A stretch of DNA of 64,000 bases from Natrinema versiforme JCM 10478 (GTDB taxonomy: Archaea; Halobacteriota; Halobacteria; Halobacteriales; Natrialbaceae): NCBI RefSeq assembly GCF_000337195.1, contig NZ_AOID01000045.1, positions 62,001 to 126,000 on the forward strand, read 5' to 3'. Each line of letters starts with the position of its first letter. Position 1 is the stretch's first letter. Under the pieces are notes generated by a model. The model worked only from the letters and a program-made list of their open reading frames with translations. It did not search any database and was not told the DNA's origin. The position numbers and the translations under genes are program-made. Below, one piece after another: positions 2,907 to 37,873 of the stretch.

Positions 2907-3250
2907 CTCCCGGGTCCACCGAGCGGCCTCGAGCGGGCGCTCCGGGATCGGGGCCCCGTTTCTGGCTCTCACAGCTCTTCGCCTTCGAGACGAGACGCCG
3001 ATAGCCGCCCATTGGGAGGCGATCGCCTCGGTACTCACGTGTATTTCTTACTATTATATGGGTGTAAACCACAGATGCCGAAAATATATCGGTTGACTAG
3101 TTCGTCCTTATATCACGCTATATACTGACCGAGTGGCGCTTGCCGCCGGAATCGACTGCCGAACCCCGGCGGTCGCTGGCTCTCGAACCGGCCGGTCGGG
3201 AACGGGACAGCCGGGGAATATATTTATACCAGCGACATAATTGGCTACGT
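2907..3250. other. Intergenic region before the amidohydrolase, AT-rich with promoter elements
   Basis: 344 bp without a convincing gene. An AT-rich part at about 3045-3125 contains several TATA-like stretches, and a strong promoter lies at 3221-3228. A reading frame open from 3140 continues into the amidohydrolase but the added residues are Arg/Pro-rich and unlike the family. Confidence 0.5.
3221..3228 (+). promoter_or_regulatory. TATA box of the amidohydrolase gene
   Basis: TATTTATA centred 27 nt before the ATG at 3251, the spacing expected for a leaderless haloarchaeal transcript. It fixes 3251 as the start and rejects the longer frame from 3140. Confidence 0.7.
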
Positions 3251-4642
3251 ATGTCGCCCGAGACGGTAGACACTATCATAGCCGACGGAACAGTCGTGAC
3301 GCCGACGGGAACGATCGACGCGGCGGTCGCGATCGACGGCGAGACGATCGCCGCCGTCGGCGCGGAGGAGTCGCTACCCGTCGCCGACCAGCGGATCGAC
3401 GCGAGCGACAGGCTCGTGATGCCGGGCGTGATCGATCCCCACGTCCACGTCGGAGAGGATCCGTTCACGATCGACACGTACCAGACGGCAAGCGAGGCCG
3501 CCGCGCTCGGCGGGACGACGACGTTCGTCAACTTCGCCTGGGAAGGCTGGGACGGCGAGACGAGCATCTACGAACCCGAGACGACGCTCGTCGAAGGGAT
3601 TCGAGCCCAGAAAGAAGCGGCCGCCGACGCCCTCGTCGACCACAGCTCCCACGGCGTGCTCGCCACCGAACGGGATGCGACGATCGAGCAACTCGAGCCG
3701 GCCCTCGAAGAGGGCGTGACATCGTTCAAGCTGTTTACCGCGTACGAACACGGCGTCTCCTACGGGTTCATGAATCAAGCGCTGCGGCGGATCGCCGAGC
3801 TAGACGCCGTCGGGATCTTCCACACGGAAGACGCCACGGTCTGTGACCAGCTGACCGAGCAGTTCCGAGCGGAGGGGAAAGGGGACCCCGAGTGGTATCC
3901 CCGGTCCCGGCCGGACTACGCCGAGGCGATGGCCGCCGACGACGTCGCGCGGATGGCCCAGGAGGCCGGCGCGAAGTACTACGGCCTCCACACCAGCTGC
4001 CGGAAGTCGGCGGAGGTTCTCGAGCGCTATCAGGACGACGGCAGTCAGATCCGCGCGGAGACCTGTACCCACTACACGGTCTACGACGACTCTGTCTTCG
4101 CGGAGCGCGGGAACCTGCCGATGATCGCGCCCCCGATCCGGAAGCCGGACGACGTCGACGCCATGTTCGAACACCTCCGCGGCGGGGCGCTCAGCGTCGT
4201 CTCGACCGACCACTGCGGCTACAAACGCGAGAGCAAGGAAGTCGAGAACTGGTGGGACAGCACGTTCGGCGCGAACGCGCTCCAGACGAGCCTGCCAGTC
4301 TTCCACGACGAGGCAGTACACGAGCGTGGATTCTCGTATCCGGCCCTTGTCCGCCTCATGTCGACCAATCCCGCACGGACGTTCGGGATGCCGGAGAAAG
4401 GGACGCTCGAGCCCGGGACCGACGCGGACGTGGTCGTGTTCGATCCCGCAGAGACCTACACGATCGACGCCGACGAGAACGGCTCCGAGGCCGACTTCTC
4501 GATCTACGAAGGGCGGGACGTGACCGGACGGGTCGAGCAGACGTTCGTCCGGGGCGAACTCGTTGCGGACGACGGCGAGATCGTCGCAGACCCCGGTCAC
4601 GGGTCGTTCGTCGAGCGGGACCTGCCGGACTGGGAGCAGTAA
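3251..4642 (+). CDS. Dihydropyrimidinase/hydantoinase-type cyclic amidohydrolase
   Basis: 463-aa metal-dependent amidohydrolase that hydrolyses the ring amide of hydantoins, dihydropyrimidines or allantoin. Visible metal-site elements are PHVHVGED (H64 and H66), a lysine in SFKLFTAY (K160, the position usually carbamylated), H191 in FHTED, a His in GLHTSC and the Asp in STDHCGY. Length matches D-hydantoinases. The start is set by the TATA box ending 22 nt upstream. Position after hyuAB and the racemase suggests one cyclic-amide utilisation locus, transcribed separately. Allantoinase or dihydroorotase-like specificity cannot be excluded. Confidence 0.85.
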   Translation: MSPETVDTIIADGTVVTPTGTIDAAVAIDGETIAAVGAEESLPVADQRIDASDRLVMPGVIDPHVHVGEDPFTIDTYQTASEAAALGGTTTFVNFAWEGWDGETSIYEPETTLVEGIRAQKEAAADALVDHSSHGVLATERDATIEQLEPALEEGVTSFKLFTAYEHGVSYGFMNQALRRIAELDAVGIFHTEDATVCDQLTEQFRAEGKGDPEWYPRSRPDYAEAMAADDVARMAQEAGAKYYGLHTSCRKSAEVLERYQDDGSQIRAETCTHYTVYDDSVFAERGNLPMIAPPIRKPDDVDAMFEHLRGGALSVVSTDHCGYKRESKEVENWWDSTFGANALQTSLPVFHDEAVHERGFSYPALVRLMSTNPARTFGMPEKGTLEPGTDADVVVFDPAETYTIDADENGSEADFSIYEGRDVTGRVEQTFVRGELVADDGEIVADPGHGSFVERDLPDWEQ

Positions 4643-5917: not shown

Positions 5918-6305
5918 ACCCGAGCGGTCGTGCTCCCGATACCTTAATATTCGGACTGAAAGACATGGCCGTCCCGGTGGCAGCGAGAGGAAGCCGGAAA
6001 CGGGAGCGCGCCGGCCGCTTCCGGTACAGGTCGGTGGTCTCCGCCTCGTCGATCCCGTCCGCATCGCTGCCGACGCCGCACTCCCGCCGCTCGCGGTCCC
6101 GAGTTCGGTCTCAGATTTCGTGGAGCGAGAAGAAACTCTATATCAGTTGATAAAGACTCGTATCCAGCCCCTATTCCGCTATACTCTCGTTTTCAGATAC
6201 TGTTCTATTTCTCTATATACTTGCTGCTGAAGGCGCTTTCCCACCCGTTCACAACAACTCCCATAAACTTATTTATATCCCGATTCCGGCCGGGGTTCGG
6301 ATCAT

Positions 6306-6550
6306 GTCGGGGTCAACGAAACCGTGATTCGACTCGACAACGAGCGGTATCGGCTGTACGTTGCGGTCGATCCAACTCCGAGTAGAGACGGGGTACAAAG
6401 CTTGCACGGGCCAGATCAAAGCGTATAGCTAGCCGTCTCCCGGACTAACGCGGAAGATTTGATGCCGGTGACAGAGTGTTTCTCGCCGATAGAGACGAGT
6501 CATTGAACCACATCGTCAGCGATACGGACCCGATTGCAGATACGAACGAC
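6306..6550 (+). mobile_element. Decayed transposase remnant (IS6-like)
   Basis: A reading frame gives VNETVIRLDNERYRLYVAVD followed by a stop at 6426, and in a shifted frame DRVFLADRDESLNHIVSD. These resemble, in order, two stretches of haloarchaeal IS6-family transposases: the first DDE-Asp block (DETVIQLN...YAAVDP in the family) and the second (VFLVD). With an internal stop and a frame change it cannot be functional. I found no terminal inverted repeats. The family assignment is from memory of the motif pattern. Confidence 0.5.
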
Positions 6551-6920
6551 GGGAAGATCGGAGCAGTGGCAAAAACATAATTGAAATGGTAAACAATGAT
6601 AGTGATAACTATAGTTATGAGTTAGGAAGCGAGTGATAACTAAACTACTAATTAGTTGTTCAGATCATTCGCATTCCCGCGGACAACATCTCTGAACACG
6701 ATCCACTGACCGATACCAGTGCTCGAACGACACTCGAGCCCGAAGAAGTGTCCGGATAGCGGACGGAGAACGAAACGGTCGACGTGTTTACTTGAAAAGT
6801 CATGGTGCCCGTGACCCATGCTAACAGGGGCGGTAATATCGGAGCGACTCGACAGCGTGGTGGCCGGGCGACGGTGAAGTTCGATATCGAGACACGACGA
6901 TGCCCGTCGAGCGCATCACC

Positions 6921-28544: not shown

Positions 28545-30146
28545 TTAACTGAATTTCTGGACGGTCACGTCGAGCGTGTCCAGATCGACGATCGGCGCGA
28601 AGCCGGCGTCGGGATCGATGTTGACGCTCTTCTGGAAGTCGGTCTGGGCCTGCCAGCAGCCGGAGTTGATCGCGAGCACGTCGTGGTACTTGCCGAAGCC
28701 GAGTTTGTGGACGTGGCCCGTATGGAAGATGTCGGGCACTTCGTCGATGATCAGGTAGTCCTTTTCTTCGGGTGCGAGCCGGGTGTGGCCCCCGAACTGG
28801 GGCGCGACGTGGCGCTTCTTGAGGAGGTGGTACATCGCCTTGTGCGGGTCGTCGTAGCTGGCTTTGTCCTCGGGCAGTTCCGCGATGACCTCGTCCAGCG
28901 ACACGCCGTGATACATCAGCACGGAGACGCCCTCAACGGTCACCATCGACGGGTTGCTCACGATCTGTGGGTCGTGGGCGGACATGATCTCTCGGAGCTC
29001 CTCGTCGAAGCCGGGCTGGGGTTCGGCGAGCCGGACCGCGTCGTGGTTGCCCGGAATCATGACGATCTCGATGTCGCCGGGGATCTTCTTCAGATGCTCG
29101 CTGAACGCCTCGTACTGCTCGTAGATGTCGACGATATCGAGCTCCTCGTCCTGGTCGGGATAGACGCCGACGCCCTCGACCATATCGCCCGCGAGCAGTA
29201 GGTACTCGACGTGTTGGGCCTCCGGCGTGTGAAGCCAGTCGGCGAAGGCGTTCCACGCGTCGGCCATGAACTCCTGACTGCCGACGTGGACGTCGCTGAT
29301 CAGCGCCGCCTGCACGTGGCGGTCCGCCGTCGACGGCTCGTGGGTCCGCGGAACGTCCGGGAAATGCATCGAGTCGACGAACGCGATCCCCGAATCGTCC
29401 GCCAGCGTTCCCTCCATCGCCAACACCTCGTCACAGAGCAGTTCCTCGACGAGGTCGGCGTAGTCCCTGTCTTTCATCACCAGCCACGGGAAGGTCCCGG
29501 TCGCGTCCTCGAGTTCGACCAGCCAGTGGCCGCTGGCCGTCGAGCGGATATCGTTGACCAGCCCGACCATCGCGACCTCGCTGCCGCCCGGCATACTCTG
29601 GATAGCCGTCGCCGGGCGGTGGTTGATCCGACCGCGCAGTTTCGATCCGAGTCGCTCGAGTCGGTCGCGAAAGACGGAGACGAAGTCGCTGTACTCGCCG
29701 GTTCCCGTACTCTGACCGGTCATGTCGCCGACGATCTCGAGGGACCGTTGGGCCGGATCTGCGGACCGGTTCGCCGACGGAGACCCCCCCGTTTCGACTG
29801 GAGATGGGTCGGCCGGTTCGCTCCCGCGGGCCCCGTCGGTTCCAGTCGAAACGGAGGGGGTGGCCGACGGGTCCGCGGGCGACGGCTCGGTCGTGGCGGC
29901 GGATCCGGCGTCGGCACCGGCATCGGTACTGGCTCCGACCGGGCCGCCCGCGCCGTCCGCTGAGAGGACGGCTTCTACGTGCTCGGTGCGGACCACGAGC
30001 GCGTCGTCGGGAATGTCCTCGAGCACGCGCTCGAGGGCCGCGCCGGGGTCCGCCGCCGACGCGAGCCGCGTCACCGCCTCGCGTTCGGCGTTGTACCCGC
30101 GGCTCGTGAGTTCGCCGACGATCCGAGCGGGGGCCTCGAGTGGCAC
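28545..30146 (-). CDS. polB: DNA polymerase II (PolD) small subunit DP1
   Basis: 533-aa DP1 subunit of the archaeal replicative polymerase PolD. The C-terminal calcineurin-like domain has ALISDVHVGS, LLAGDMVEGVG, MIPGNHDAVR, MYHGVS and HTGHVHKLG, the metal-binding set of the DP1 3'-5' exonuclease. An OB-fold precedes it. Residues about 70-150 are a low-complexity linker. GTG at 30146 (MPLEAPARIVGELTSRGYN) fits the family start; a further upstream start would add nine residues. Two inverted ORB-like boxes (29783-29802 and 29841-29861) lie in the linker-coding part. Confidence 0.95.
   Translation of the reverse strand: MPLEAPARIVGELTSRGYNAEREAVTRLASAADPGAALERVLEDIPDDALVVRTEHVEAVLSADGAGGPVGASTDAGADAGSAATTEPSPADPSATPSVSTGTDGARGSEPADPSPVETGGSPSANRSADPAQRSLEIVGDMTGQSTGTGEYSDFVSVFRDRLERLGSKLRGRINHRPATAIQSMPGGSEVAMVGLVNDIRSTASGHWLVELEDATGTFPWLVMKDRDYADLVEELLCDEVLAMEGTLADDSGIAFVDSMHFPDVPRTHEPSTADRHVQAALISDVHVGSQEFMADAWNAFADWLHTPEAQHVEYLLLAGDMVEGVGVYPDQDEELDIVDIYEQYEAFSEHLKKIPGDIEIVMIPGNHDAVRLAEPQPGFDEELREIMSAHDPQIVSNPSMVTVEGVSVLMYHGVSLDEVIAELPEDKASYDDPHKAMYHLLKKRHVAPQFGGHTRLAPEEKDYLIIDEVPDIFHTGHVHKLGFGKYHDVLAINSGCWQAQTDFQKSVNIDPDAGFAPIVDLDTLDVTVQKFS
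29783..29861. repeat. Inverted pair of ORB-like boxes inside polB
   Basis: Left box ACCCCCCCGTTTCGACTGGA (29783-29802) and right box TCCAGTCGAAACGGAGGGGG (29841-29860) are near-perfect reverse complements with the G-strings pointing outward. They resemble the boxes of the origin at 35.2-35.5 kb. They lie in the coding region for the flexible DP1 linker. Confidence 0.55.
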
Positions 30147-30371
30147 ACTCCTCGCATTCGCGAGGGAGGCCAAAAGGGTAGCGACTCGCCGTCTCAGGCG
30201 GGTGTTTGTCGGCCGTTAGCGTGGGGAATTCGGCAGCGACTGGTGAGGGCAACTGCCAGCAGTTGCATCTCCTCGGCAGCAGTAGCGGGGCGTCTGGTTC
30301 CCGCGTGCGACTCGCCCGCGAGGGCGTGTTCGTCGGAAGCTTAATGCCTCGGTCCGCGAAATCGACTGCCG

Positions 30372-31271
30372 ATGGACGGTCCCGACGGCGAACGGAACGG
30401 GAAGCGGTCCGATACTCGCGAGGAGCACTCCGAATCGGCTCCGTTTTCCGCGGATTCCCCTGCTGATCGCGATTCAGAGGCCACCGATCGCCAACCGAAG
30501 CCGGGTGCTCGAGCGCGGGCCGAGCGCGAGGAGCGGGTCACGATCGACGACGACGGCGTCGTTCGCTGGCTGCTCGAGACCGACGACTGGACGGTCACTG
30601 TGGGTCGCGACATCGCGACGTGTCTTGCCATCGTGGCCGTCAGCAGCCTCCTTCTGTTCGGTATCAGCGGCGTCTGGCCGGCCTTCGTCGCCGTCGAAAG
30701 TGGGAGCATGGAGCCGAACATCGCGCAGGGAGACCTCGTCTTTATCGCCGACGATGACCGGTTCGTGGGGGACAGTGCCGTCGCGGGAACCGGCGTGGTC
30801 ACGTTCCAGAGCGGGCAGGCGACCGATCACGAGAAGTTCGCCAATCCCGGCGACGTGATCGTCTTCATGCCGAACGGCGATCCGACCGAGACGCCGACGA
30901 TCCACCGCGCCCACTTCTGGGTCGAGGCGGGCGAAAACTGGATCGAGACGGAGGCAAATCCAGAGTTCACGAACGGCGCGACCTGCAACGAGATCGTCTC
31001 GTGTCCGGCACCGCACGACGGCTTCATTACGAAAGGCGACGCCAACGCCGGCTACGACCAACTGCCGCGGTCGGGCGCGGACACGACGGTCGTCAGCGCG
31101 GACTGGATCACCGGGAAAGCGATGGCTCGAGTCCCGTGGATCGGCGGACTCACGTTAGCGGTCGGCTCGGTGCAGTCGCTGACCGGCGTCGGCTCGATCG
31201 CTATCCTCGCCGGTACAGCAGTCGTCGCGCTCGCGCTGTTCGCGATGGCCGCCGAAAAGCGCAAGCCATGA
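30372..31271 (+). CDS. Signal peptidase I-like protein (archaeal S26B), copy 1
   Basis: 299-aa membrane serine peptidase of the archaeal/ER signalase type, which cleaves signal peptides. An acidic N-terminal tail of about 75 residues is followed by a membrane helix (LAIVAVSSLLLFGISGVWPAF), the catalytic Ser in VAVESGSMEPNI, and His in TIHRAHFW that replaces the bacterial Lys. A C-terminal helix (GSIAILAGTAVVALALFAMA) anchors it. A GCTTAATG promoter element is about 30 nt upstream. It is followed after 88 nt by a close paralogue, so the pair arose by tandem duplication. Confidence 0.88.
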   Translation: MDGPDGERNGKRSDTREEHSESAPFSADSPADRDSEATDRQPKPGARARAEREERVTIDDDGVVRWLLETDDWTVTVGRDIATCLAIVAVSSLLLFGISGVWPAFVAVESGSMEPNIAQGDLVFIADDDRFVGDSAVAGTGVVTFQSGQATDHEKFANPGDVIVFMPNGDPTETPTIHRAHFWVEAGENWIETEANPEFTNGATCNEIVSCPAPHDGFITKGDANAGYDQLPRSGADTTVVSADWITGKAMARVPWIGGLTLAVGSVQSLTGVGSIAILAGTAVVALALFAMAAEKRKP

Positions 31272-34452: not shown

Positions 34453-34463
34453 CCGTCATGCAG

Positions 34464-34486
34464 CACCCCCTTATTTCGAGTGGAAC
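34464..34486 (-). promoter_or_regulatory. ORB overlapping the orc1 promoter
   Basis: The box starts with CACCCCCTTATTTCGAGTGG. Read on the reverse strand it contains AAATAAGG, a TATA-like element about 22 nt before the orc1 ATG (34452). Orc1 binding here would cover the TATA element. Confidence 0.65.
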
Positions 34487-35161
34487 GCCGGACCGGGGAG
34501 CAGGAATATCGCGGTATGATGGCCTCCGTGGGATGATCCACCGTTCCAGATACCCGATTCGGGTCCAGTTGATGCAAACGAAACAGAGGAAAACCACGCT
34601 AATAAAGCCTTCCCTTCCCCCCTCGTTCCGGTCGACTGAACCGTTTCGCCGCCACGTCTATCGGTCGCTGAAAGTCACGTCCGGTGTTCGATCGCAACGC
34701 TGCCGAACGATATCGTTTGAAGATAATTATAATTGAACGTGCGTGTGAGCGACAGGAGGGTGTGTACGAGCGATAGGAGGATGTTCTCGCTCGAGACGAA
34801 ACGGGACCGGTCACGATGAAGATCAGGATGCGTGTCGATCCGCCGCTGTTCTCGTCAACTCCCGGTCGTGGTGACGACCGAAACGGTGTCCCATTGGGGA
34901 TCGTTTCGAGTCGACGGGATTCATGTGCGAAGGTCGTATCAGGATTCGACCCACTGGTTGACCGGTGGCTTCGACTCCGCCTCTATTCAGGCGATCTGTG
35001 AGTCGATGGAGAGGTGACTCATTCGGGAGGTCATATCGGATTCACGCTATGAATTCCATAAGATATCAGGTATGTTTGTGCGAGGAGACGGAGAACGATC
35101 TTGGAAATCGAATCGGAGTGTGTTCCGTGCTAACAGATGACTCTTGGAGGGGAAAGCCCCC

Positions 35162-35184
35162 CACCCCTTTGTTTCGAGTGGAAC
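35162..35184 (-). repeat. Origin recognition box, left
   Basis: Begins CACCCCTTTGTTTCGAGTGG. The G-string (on the reverse strand) points left, away from the AT-rich segment. It sits in a longer palindrome, ACAAAGGGTGGGGG being repeated inverted on its right. Confidence 0.8.
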
Positions 35185-35422
35185 GAGACAAAGGGTGGGG
35201 GAGGGGGAGAACGGGCATTTAGGACGGGAAGCTTTATTTGGATAGGCTAGAAACAGTATCCGCAGAACTAGCAGACCGAATAATTCTACTAGAGTTGTTT
35301 TTGTTGTTGCTAGTTCCTGCTAGAATCGGTTCTCATCGTTCCACGAGTTACTAGATTAGCTTCTGGGTTACTAGAACCATCTCTTTCAACCGATTCGTCC
35401 GTCTCATCCCCCTGAACGGCGG

Positions 35423-35444
35423 CTCGAGTCGAACGGAGGGTGGG
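35423..35444 (+). repeat. Degenerate origin recognition box
   Basis: Begins CTCGAGTCGAACGGAGGGTG; same orientation as the right ORB but with a base missing in the AAAC part. Confidence 0.5.
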
Positions 35445-35500
35445 AAATCCCTCCACTCACTCCCGATCAATCCGTTCGACCGGCCACGGCCTCGACAGTC

Positions 35501-35525
35501 TCCAGTTGAAACGAAGGGGTGGGGG
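35501..35525 (+). repeat. Origin recognition box, right
   Basis: Begins TCCAGTTGAAACGAAGGGGT, very close to the general archaeal ORB. The G-string points right, away from the AT-rich segment. Confidence 0.85.
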
Positions 35526-35810
35526 ATTCGAGATCGTCTCCGGAGTACTAGAATGATATTCATTCTCAGTCCCCTTTCCCTATTGCTGGCCGAGTAACTA
35601 TCACAATTCGCACTCTTCTCGAGTGAGAGCGGAGGTATCGTTCTTCGGCGACGAGTATCCCGATTATCGAAACTCGATTCGTCTCTGCGGAAACTATCTG
35701 GGGTACTAACAACTCTCTTCCATCGAATTGTCTACATGTCTGACGTAGGCTTAAGTGAGTTCAGTTTGTAGTACGCGCAACTGCACCCCGCGGTGCTGGA
35801 GGCCCCCACG

Positions 35811-36449
35811 ATGGGACTGTTCACAGAACTCAAAGATAGTATCTCTCGGGCTACGGATCGCCTGTTTTCGGAACAGGAGCCCAAACGAATCGGTATCTAC
35901 GGTCCGCCGAACGCCGGCAAGACGACGCTCGCGAACCGAATCGCGCGTGACTGGACTGGTGACGCGGTCGGCGCGGAGAGCCACGTCCCCCACGAGACGC
36001 GTCGCGCACGCAGGAAAGAAAACGTCGAGATCGAACGCGACGGCAAGACGGTAACCATCGACATCGTCGACACGCCCGGCGTGACGACGAAGGTCGACTA
36101 CGAGGAGTTCACCGACGAGATGGACGAGGAAGACGCCATCCGTCGCTCCCGCGAAGCGACCGAAGGCGTCGCCGAGGCGATGCATTGGCTGCGCGAGGAC
36201 GTCGACGGCGTCATCTACGTCCTAGACAGCGCGGAGGACCCGATCACACAGGTCAATACGATGCTGATCGGCATCGTCGAGTCTCGGGATCTCCCCGTTC
36301 TGATCTTCGCGAACAAGACCGACCTCGACGACTCGAGCGTCAAACGGATCGAGGACGCGTTCCCGCAACACAAGACCGTCCCCCTATCGGCCAAAGAGGG
36401 GGACAACATGGACGAAGTCTACGACAATATCGCGGAGTACTTCGGGTGA
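35811..36449 (+). CDS. Origin-associated Era-like GTPase (OapA-type)
   Basis: 212-aa GTP-binding protein. G1 is GPPNAGKTT, G3 DTPGVT, G4 ANKTDLDD and G5 SAKEG, a full Era/Der-type set. The ATG at 35811 (MGLFTELKDSISRATDRLF) is preferred to an upstream GTG that would add six residues. It is the first of three tightly spaced genes beside the origin. Haloarchaeal literature describes such origin-associated proteins (oapA, B, C) next to orc1 at the major oriC; a replication-linked role is inferred from context. Confidence 0.88.
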   Translation: MGLFTELKDSISRATDRLFSEQEPKRIGIYGPPNAGKTTLANRIARDWTGDAVGAESHVPHETRRARRKENVEIERDGKTVTIDIVDTPGVTTKVDYEEFTDEMDEEDAIRRSREATEGVAEAMHWLREDVDGVIYVLDSAEDPITQVNTMLIGIVESRDLPVLIFANKTDLDDSSVKRIEDAFPQHKTVPLSAKEGDNMDEVYDNIAEYFG

Positions 36450-36455
36450 CCACCG

Positions 36456-36857
36456 ATGCCAAAAGCAACTAACGCGGACGACTCCGATGCCCCCGACGGC
36501 GTCCAGATCGACCTGATCAGCGGCGAACGGATGGCCGGCATGGCAACGATGGAGAAGATCAGGATGATCTTAGACGGCGTCCACGACGGCAACATCGTCA
36601 TCTTAGAGGAAGGGCTCACCCCCGACGAGGAAAGCCGGCTCATCGAGGTCACGATGGCCGAGATCAGCCCCGACGAGTTCAACGGGATCGAGATCGAGAC
36701 CTACCCGAAATCCGAGACCCGCGACTCGTCGCTGCTCGGTCGCATCATGGGGGGTGACGAGACGGAAGCGAAGCTGACGGTAATCGGCCCGGCGAATCAG
36801 ATCGAGACGCTCCACAAGGACGAAACGCTCATCAGCGCGCTCGTGTCCCGTAACTAA
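36456..36857 (+). CDS. DUF2073 / origin-associated protein OapB-type
   Basis: 133-aa protein of the DUF2073 (OapB) family. It begins MPKATNADDSDAPDGVQIDL and has the conserved RMAGMATMEKIRMILDGVHD and ILEEGLTPDEESRLIEVTMA. It starts 6 nt after the GTPase stop, and its stop overlaps the next ATG (TAATG), so the three genes are translationally linked. The biochemical function is not known to me. Confidence 0.87.
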   Translation: MPKATNADDSDAPDGVQIDLISGERMAGMATMEKIRMILDGVHDGNIVILEEGLTPDEESRLIEVTMAEISPDEFNGIEIETYPKSETRDSSLLGRIMGGDETEAKLTVIGPANQIETLHKDETLISALVSRN

Positions 36858-37873
36858 TGCCACATCAGTGTACGAACTGCGGCCGAACGTTCGCCGACGG
36901 CTCCAAGGAGATGCTGTCGGGCTGTCCCGACTGCGGCGGGAACAAGTTCCAGTTCGCGCCGACCACAACGGCCGCAGCCGAATCGTCCGCCGGAACCGCT
37001 GCCGATACCGACGACTCGGGATCGGCCGGGACCGCGAGTGCCGCGGCACAATCTTCGACCGCCGAGTCGGACGGCGTCGCGACGCGAGCCGCGGAGACGG
37101 TTCGCGACTGGGTGTCGTCCGATTCCGCGGACGAACCGACGGCCGACGCCGCCGAGCGATCGCGCTCGGACGACTCGACCGCGACGTCGGCAGCCGCACC
37201 GAACCAGTCGTGGCCCTCGAGCGAGGACGCCGCCGCTCCGGAGTCGGACACCTCGCCGGACGGCGAGTTCGACGAGTGGCCCGAGACGGCCCGGCGGCCC
37301 GAGGATCGATCCGGCTCGCCGGACGAGACGGCCGCCGACGCGCCGACTGAGGCGACGACCGACGATCGAACGCGGTCCGACGACGACTGGCCCGACCAAC
37401 CCTCGAGCGGGCCGACGACGACGATGGCGGACGACGAGAACTCGGCACAGGCAGATGCCCGGAGCACGGTCGTCCCCTCGGACGACCTCCCCTCCCACTC
37501 CGAGACGCCCGGTCGTGAGTCCGATCCGTCCAGTCGAAACGGAGCCGACCGCGATCCTGCAGCCGGGAGCGCCGTCGATGCACACGCCGAAGCCGAGACC
37601 GAAGCCGCAGTCGACACCGGTGTCGACGACCAGCCCCCGGACCACGGGCGCGTCGTCAGCGAACCGAGCGGACAGCGCCCGTCGATCGAGGAACTCCGGG
37701 CGGAGCTCAACGAGCAGTTCGAGAGCATCAAGATCGTTCGGCCGGGACAGTACGAACTCAACCTGATGGAACTCTACAACCGCGACGAGTACATCATCTC
37801 TCTGCAGGAAGACGGACGGTACGTGATCGACGTGCCGGATTCGTGGCACGCCGACGACGACGGCGAGGACTGA
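36857..37873 (+). CDS. Zinc-ribbon protein, origin-associated OapC-type
   Basis: 338 aa in three parts: an N-terminal zinc ribbon (CTNCGRTF ... CPDCGGNKF, four cysteines), a long Ser/Thr/Asp/Ala-rich disordered linker (about residues 40-255), and a conserved C-terminal block SIEELRAELNEQFESIKIVR ... PGQYELNLMELYNRDEYI. The C-terminal block probably mediates a protein contact. An ORB-like half box (37529-37544) lies in the linker-coding region. The gene ends the origin-side operon. Confidence 0.87.
   Translation: MPHQCTNCGRTFADGSKEMLSGCPDCGGNKFQFAPTTTAAAESSAGTAADTDDSGSAGTASAAAQSSTAESDGVATRAAETVRDWVSSDSADEPTADAAERSRSDDSTATSAAAPNQSWPSSEDAAAPESDTSPDGEFDEWPETARRPEDRSGSPDETAADAPTEATTDDRTRSDDDWPDQPSSGPTTTMADDENSAQADARSTVVPSDDLPSHSETPGRESDPSSRNGADRDPAAGSAVDAHAEAETEAAVDTGVDDQPPDHGRVVSEPSGQRPSIEELRAELNEQFESIKIVRPGQYELNLMELYNRDEYIISLQEDGRYVIDVPDSWHADDDGED
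37529..37544 (+). repeat. ORB-like half box inside the zinc-ribbon gene
   Basis: TCCAGTCGAAACGGAG matches the dyad part of the origin boxes but the G-string is broken. It lies in linker-coding sequence. Confidence 0.3.

Follow-up and report, generated by a model that had tools for sequence, protein, structure and literature searches.

The orc1/cdc6 and oapA genes of Natrinema versiforme diverge from an interval in which no credible gene is found, and the question raised by this locus is what that interval does and through which of its parts. The window analysed is a stretch of 64 kb, and all positions below count from its first letter unless another contig is named (Table 1). A sequence-only reading of the window had described a gene-free gap of about 1.36 kb between divergent orc1 and Era-like GTPase genes; this proved exact, with 1,358 bp between the orc1 start (34452) and the oapA start (35811) and with both genes identified by Pfam/NCBIfam. 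The oap trio that it placed downstream was likewise recovered in order, the small GTPase, OapB and OapC genes being consecutive. The ORFs at 30372 and 31333 appear signal-peptidase-like by eye only, without a Pfam match.

Table 1. Features of the origin locus, in window coordinates.
Feature	Position	Strand	Details
DNA polymerase D small subunit (DP1), known oriC1 neighbourhood gene	28545..30173	-	NF003116 6.4e-299
orc1/cdc6 initiator gene, 605 aa	32635..34452	-	PF09079 5.8e-32; NF001625 ORC1-type 1.9e-196
orc1-oapA intergenic region holding oriC1	34453..35810		No credible gene; divergent flanking genes
Third ORB	34463..34486	-	GTTCCACTCGAAATAAGGGGGTGC; 21 bp ahead of the orc1 start codon
ORB-L	35157..35184	-	GTTCCACTCGAAACAAAGGGGTGGGGGGC; outward (left) G-string
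Mirrored half-ORB overlapping ORB-L, with inner G-rich tract (35193-35207)	35178..35209	+	GTGGAACGAGACAAAGGGTGGGGGAGGGGGAG
Origin core	35226..35271	+	TTTAT 35233-35237, 14 bp, block AACAGTATCCGCA 35252-35264
CTAG array, 7 sites	35247..35374		35247, 35268, 35289, 35310, 35320, 35351, 35371
ORB-R	35499..35525	+	TCTCCAGTTGAAACGAAGGGGTGGGGG; outward (right) G-string
oapA, Era-like small GTPase	35811..36449	+	MMR_HSR1 5.4e-14, small_GTP 1.5e-18
oapB	36456..36857	+	PF09846 OapB 1.1e-42
oapC	36857..37873	+	PF09845 OapC 3e-30

The two strong inverted ORBs with outward G-strings claimed for this interval are present within slightly wider limits, and together with the mirrored half-site on ORB-L they are the only strong GAAAC-plus-G-string matches in the 64 kb. 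The segment between them is AT-rich, as had been stated (GC 0.445 at 35200-35399), and the 150-bp duplex at 35232-35381 ranks as third weakest in the window; the other weakest stretches lie at 6123-6719 and 2983-3132. A possible inner G-rich inverted repeat has its left arm, GGGTGGGGGAGGGGG, at 35193-35207 and only a partial right arm. In Haloarcula hispanica, oriC1-cdc6A shares this setting of orc1 and GTPase (gbp/oapA) genes and likewise has inverted ORBs whose extended G-strings point outward, an AT-rich centre and an inner G-rich tract beside ORB-L (Wu et al. 2013, PMC3936714; 2012, PMC3528665). The tract at 35193-35207 is comparable with the enhancer G-repeat of that origin (PMC3936714), from which the Natrinema site differs in the incompleteness of the right arm. 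GC skew, which the sequence-only reading had named as a check, switches sign close to the site (Mann-Whitney p = 0.003). Its cumulative curve, however, hardly moves between 35.3 and 45 kb, so that skew gives only weak support for an origin.

Since the DP1 gene, the two signal-peptidase-like ORFs, orc1, the ORBs, oapABC and the weak duplex all fit oriC1, we consider it nearly certain that the site is this conserved main chromosomal origin, replication activity itself not having been shown. The earlier claim of a haloarchaeal chromosomal origin is thus upheld, the site agreeing with haloarchaeal oriC1 in gene context, in the sequence and orientation of its ORBs and in its weak duplex. Haloarchaeal oriC1 is experimentally active in Har. 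hispanica and others (PMC3936714, PMC4010727), with ORBs and G-strings being required in Har. hispanica (PMC3936714). Haloarchaea do carry dormant origins, and about a dozen orc1/cdc6 genes are present in the N. versiforme genome, which would leave room for a degenerate or dormant site here; but every part is intact and conserved, and oriC1 is the conserved primary origin in the haloarchaea studied (PMC4010727), making such an interpretation very improbable.

For comparison, 120 other haloarchaeal genomes were reached via OapB, giving with the window 121 regions around oapAB. The divergent orc1-oapA layout was found in most of these loci, and a clear inverted ORB pair equivalent to that of the window lies upstream of oapA in 95 of the 121. 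Most of the remaining 26 are regions in which contig ends cut the locus or oapABC lies apart from orc1. The latter arrangement is seen in many genomes of genus g20, probably Halorubrum as inferred from its matching methyltransferase (MTase) distribution, and there the ORB pair was found beside orc1 instead. Several kilobases separate oapABC from orc1/oriC1 in many of the g20 genomes represented by loci L094, L158, L159, L161-L163, L167 and L168, and because of such kilobase-scale separation the oap trio cannot be taken as always adjoining the origin. No recognisable ORB pair was seen beside the best oriC1-type orc1 at three other loci (L270, L271 and L274, from G045, G046 and G043; Natrialbaceae g6 and g5): in G043 a pair with the core described below adjoins oapA, and for G045 and G046 neither orc1 nor oapA was found to have a pair beside it.

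The origin reading is right but as such already known, and the novelty of the site sits between the ORBs. Three parts had been omitted from the earlier account, namely a conserved core (35226-35271), a CTAG array (35247-35374) and, outside the ORB pair, a third ORB in the orc1 promoter. An ORB-like site within 70 bp upstream of orc1 was observed in 26 of 28 Natrialbaceae loci and in none of 28 control stretches, nearly always at 21-22 bp from the start codon. It likely serves Orc1 autoregulation, an inference made from position alone.

The core was first noticed by laying out the inter-ORB DNA of about 110 haloarchaeal oriC1s. It is a directional element of 46 bp with a BRE/TATA-like first half of consensus RGRAG-N-TTTAT, followed after 14 bp by a 13-bp block, AACARTAYCCGYA. 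Searches with an ungapped 46-column matrix, using the 99th percentile of shuffles as threshold, detected it in 104 of 110 oriC1 inter-ORB regions, covering 9 of 10 families, and training with each family held out recovered the same 104 sites; in the other six regions the core fell below the matrix threshold. Within the window the core scores 45.9 and the runner-up position -0.7, the best score in 3 Mb of random sequence at 45% GC being 14.2. Its distance to one ORB is nearly constant over the oriC1 set, with a median of 76 bp and a 5-95% range of 73-89. An alignment of 59 cores showed A11, A28, C35 and C36 to be invariant and T10, A27, C29, A33 and G37 nearly so, and in an alignment of 29 Natrialbaceae sequences the core columns were 0.88 identical versus 0.61 for other columns. 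As no conserved RNA structure was found in the core and an Rfam scan of the interval gave no match at E<=1, the core is probably a DNA element. Moreover, its presence in 17 of 20 genomes lacking the MTase discussed below indicates that it is independent of CTAG methylation. Outside Halobacteria, no match was obtained in the searched genomes of other classes of the phylum at E<=0.001 under stricter filters. We have little doubt that the core is a real functional origin element.

In nine genomes from five genera and four families (G130; G098, G017, G061; G066; G128, G031, G053; G129) the core was observed in inverted orientation between the ORBs. The ORB on its own upstream side is again about 76 bp away; the core thus keeps its spacing to an ORB but not its orientation relative to orc1 and oapA. 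The genome of N. versiforme (4.19 Mb) contains only two core matches at E<=1, that of oriC1 and a second at G000:C36:15308-15351, which is enclosed by perfect inverted repeats from a distinct ORB family, is located upstream of a further orc1 paralog and has four CTAGs nearby. This second site (L010 about 3555-3600, minus strand) looks like a complete origin, with perfect inverted ORBs TTTTTCGAGTTG plus a G-run and the core. Several more ORB repeats are present there towards orc1 besides the inverted pair, recalling the negative-control ORB cluster of Har. hispanica oriC2.

Across 59 haloarchaeal genomes searched, zero to three core matches per genome were found. Twenty extra matches were fetched, 19 of which lie 235-879 bp from an orc1/cdc6 gene, with 42-52% identity to paralogs of N. 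versiforme in all these genes with one exception; the remaining match is weak and sits at a contig end. When these 19 cores, three from plasmids and the second one of N. versiforme were tested for flanking repeats, all 23 were located between 18-bp inverted repeats with 0-3 mismatches, versus about 5 in shuffles. As these repeats comprise at least five unrelated sequences, the core is not bound to one ORB type. Single-orc plasmid loci of haloarchaea carried the core in four of 13 cases, the nine without it being mostly of Orc4 type, and none was found in the one methanogen plasmid record in which it was sought. That the core marks orc1 loci universally is ruled out by its absence from these nine loci and from most orc1 loci of N. 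versiforme itself. Many of the core-less plasmid loci (L328, L329, L331-L333, L335, L337-L339) are annotated as Orc4 and some adjoin a gene for a type B DNA polymerase; these loci may use another initiation mode.

The oriC1 architecture as described thus far provisionally gains a component. Published accounts of Har. hispanica oriC1 give its centre as an AT-rich stretch and a G-rich inverted repeat, without mention of a directional core, of core inversions or of sharing with other origin types (PMC3936714, PMC3528665). In the open-access literature searched, which did not cover all primary origin papers, no description was found of the core, of its inverted forms or of its occurrence with several ORB types.

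A TATA-like element facing a gene could also be a normal promoter that serves oapA or orc1 and is placed between the ORBs by chance. The core does face oapA in most oriC1s, and here oapA begins about 550 bp downstream; yet haloarchaeal mRNAs are mostly leaderless, and such a leader would be unusually long for this group. Furthermore, this interpretation would have to accommodate the inversions in nine genomes, as well as origins without oapA in which the core points towards orc1, away from it or at its far (3') end. As this variable orientation shows that the core is not the orc1 promoter, an ordinary promoter constitutes an improbable explanation.

What the core does is less clear. Its first half appears in different origins as TTTAT, TTAAGT, CTAAGT or TTCAAG, and as far as can be judged from these variants it changes as haloarchaeal BRE/TATA boxes do; the columns RGRAG-N-TTTAT of the 59-sequence alignment place a BRE and a TATA-like box at the correct mutual spacing. 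Haloarchaeal promoters have the consensus CGAAA plus TTWT and share with the core the BRE-like purines 2-3 bp ahead of a TTTAT-type box (Babski 2016, PMC4983044). Unlike them, the core adds a near-invariant 13-bp block at a fixed distance, lies inside origins and has no common downstream gene. As the draft assembly of N. versiforme lacks 16S, regions upstream of 16S genes were taken from six other haloarchaea, and the first-half matrix alone landed repeatedly about 220 (-224), 320 (-325), 410 and 600 bp upstream of these genes, supporting promoter likeness because promoters are expected there. Alone this matrix is weak, with a shuffle 95th percentile of 10.2 and most rRNA-upstream matches at 6-13. 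The second half of the core gave no strong match in the same rRNA-upstream regions. We infer a promoter-like element whose start or melting block is specific to origins. Whether it works by a promoter-type mechanism is evenly poised, as this is an inference without data on transcription starts, TBP/TFB binding or melting.

The main rival to the promoter interpretation is a dedicated replication factor acting on the 13-bp block without transcription, such as an unrecognised initiator, an MCM loading or primase start site, or an Oap protein, in which case the TATA likeness would reflect a weak duplex only. The block is nearly invariant at A27, A28, C29, A33, C35, C36 and G37, beyond the needs of a haloarchaeal promoter, keeps a fixed distance from one ORB in oriC1 and is common to origins of different ORB type. 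Its conservation goes well beyond that of ordinary archaeal initiator regions and would suit a dedicated protein equally well. However, such a protein would not account for a first half that varies exactly like haloarchaeal TATA boxes, with BRE-like bases ahead, and we regard it as possible but rather doubtful. Current data cannot separate the two. Known precedents for the promoter interpretation are transcription-activated origins, such as that of plasmid ColE1 and the mitochondrial light-strand promoter, where a promoter inside the origin faces the region to be opened; unlike these, no transcription has been shown here and initiation depends on Orc1/ORB.

CTAG clusters upstream of orc1/cdc6, tied to an orphan MTase, were reported by Blow et al. 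2016 (PMC4752239). In the window, CTAG occurs 22 times versus 81 expected, and seven of the 22 fall within 128 bp between the ORBs, at spacings of 21, 21, 21, 10, 31 and 20 bp; an eighth site is found beyond ORB-R, at 35548. CTAG density between the ORBs is 20/kb in Natrialbaceae and 10.5/kb in other MTase-bearing genomes, as compared with 1.5/kb elsewhere in the same intergenic regions and 0.3/kb in coding DNA, and CTAG is the only palindromic tetramer so strongly enriched in both groups. In the 29-sequence Natrialbaceae alignment the CTAG columns are 0.90 identical versus 0.61 for other columns, many of the sites reading TTACTAGA. One could argue that the array is a mere by-product of relaxed CTAG avoidance in non-coding AT-rich DNA, given that CTAG is depleted genome-wide and any relaxation would lift its counts. 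Nevertheless, sites are about ten times sparser in the remainder of these origin-bearing intergenic regions, inter-ORB counts are 2.7-3.4 fold above dinucleotide shuffles in MTase-bearing genomes and below expectation in MTase-less ones, and the sites are conserved where neighbouring columns are not, so that this by-product explanation is hardly tenable.

Spacings between CTAG sites cluster at 10, 20-22 and 31 bp in Natrialbaceae, with an observed period of 10.25-10.5 (z 9-13; 15 genera, the sites being inherited). Helical phasing as a general rule was rejected, other families showing no significant period (z 1.3). Neither the placement of CTAG between the ORBs nor its phasing was found described in the open-access literature, again with incomplete coverage of the primary origin papers. 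Our sites agree with the clusters of Blow 2016 and Ouellette 2018 (PMC4752239, PMC5867850) in origin enrichment, MTase correlation and occurrence at several origins per genome, and go beyond them in lying inside the ORB pair and for the most part downstream of the core, in being phased and individually conserved in Natrialbaceae, and in the phylogenetic confounding of the CTAG-MTase correlation shown here.

An N4/N6 MTase gene is present in the N. versiforme genome (G000:C53; PF01555 2.5e-36), with homologs in 125 of 145 haloarchaeal genomes, and its methylation of CTAG is inferred from the matching distribution in the literature (PMC6471742, PMC5867850). The array could be an archaeal counterpart of Dam/SeqA, with hemimethylated sites blocking re-initiation after fork passage, either through a reader or through the loss of a duplex-weakening m4C. 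A role for the MTase was already proposed by Blow 2016 (PMC4752239), and the density between the ORBs of 14.4/kb in 90 MTase-bearing versus 1.6/kb in 20 MTase-less genomes would fit it, as would the low densities in outer intergenic and coding DNA and the conservation of the CTAG columns. The Natrialbaceae spacings, moreover, fit the two to three helical turns for efficient SeqA binding in vitro (PMC5145175). E. coli oriC also concentrates methylation-motif sites in the origin (PMC5145175), with m6A at unphased GATC; here m4C, which is inferred, would be at phased CTAG, with no known reader. However, a single family accounts for all MTase losses, and the association amounts to about six changes on the tree with only three supported independent pairs, which leaves the tests without power. 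MTase dependence of the cluster as a proven association was rejected, being unsupported after phylogenetic control. In addition, MTase-bearing Halorubrum-like genomes lack the array, and normal growth is seen in a Hfx. volcanii strain that lacks CTAG methylation (PMC5867850). A Dam/SeqA-type role, which is compatible with our explanation of the core, consequently remains tentative.

Our preferred explanation, to which we assign a probability of roughly 0.55, is that the site is an oriC1 at which Orc1 and MCM act at the ORBs, the promoter-like core aids opening and CTAG tunes re-initiation. Orc1 would bind the inverted ORBs and load MCM onto the weak duplex between them, as is established for this origin family and inferred here. 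TBP/TFB and probably RNA polymerase would bind the core, and melting would start at the 13-bp block or the unwinding region would be transcribed; in either case, basal transcription factors at the core would help to open the origin and confer direction. In MTase-bearing lineages, the CTAG sites would lie in the segment to be opened, where m4C or a reader on one helix face may tune re-initiation. Factor binding, transcription and any effect of methylation are all inferred. The broader proposal, in which origins of different Orc/ORB specificities share the promoter-like core, transcription factors open the origin and an m4C CTAG array gates re-initiation, falls somewhat short of an even chance.

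The first melting of archaeal origins is an open question. Orc1/Cdc6 binding is reported in a review to cause no further melting (PMC7776575), and origins have been described as just ORBs and an AT-rich stretch. A specific, directional and ORB-independent element in that stretch provides a concrete target for mutation, shows haloarchaeal origins to be asymmetric and, as 19 of the 20 extra matches lie beside orc1/cdc6, allows origins to be located without a known ORB sequence. The known CTAG clusters are now placed exactly where methylation could affect opening. If the proposal is true, archaeal initiation would use the transcription machinery at the origin itself.
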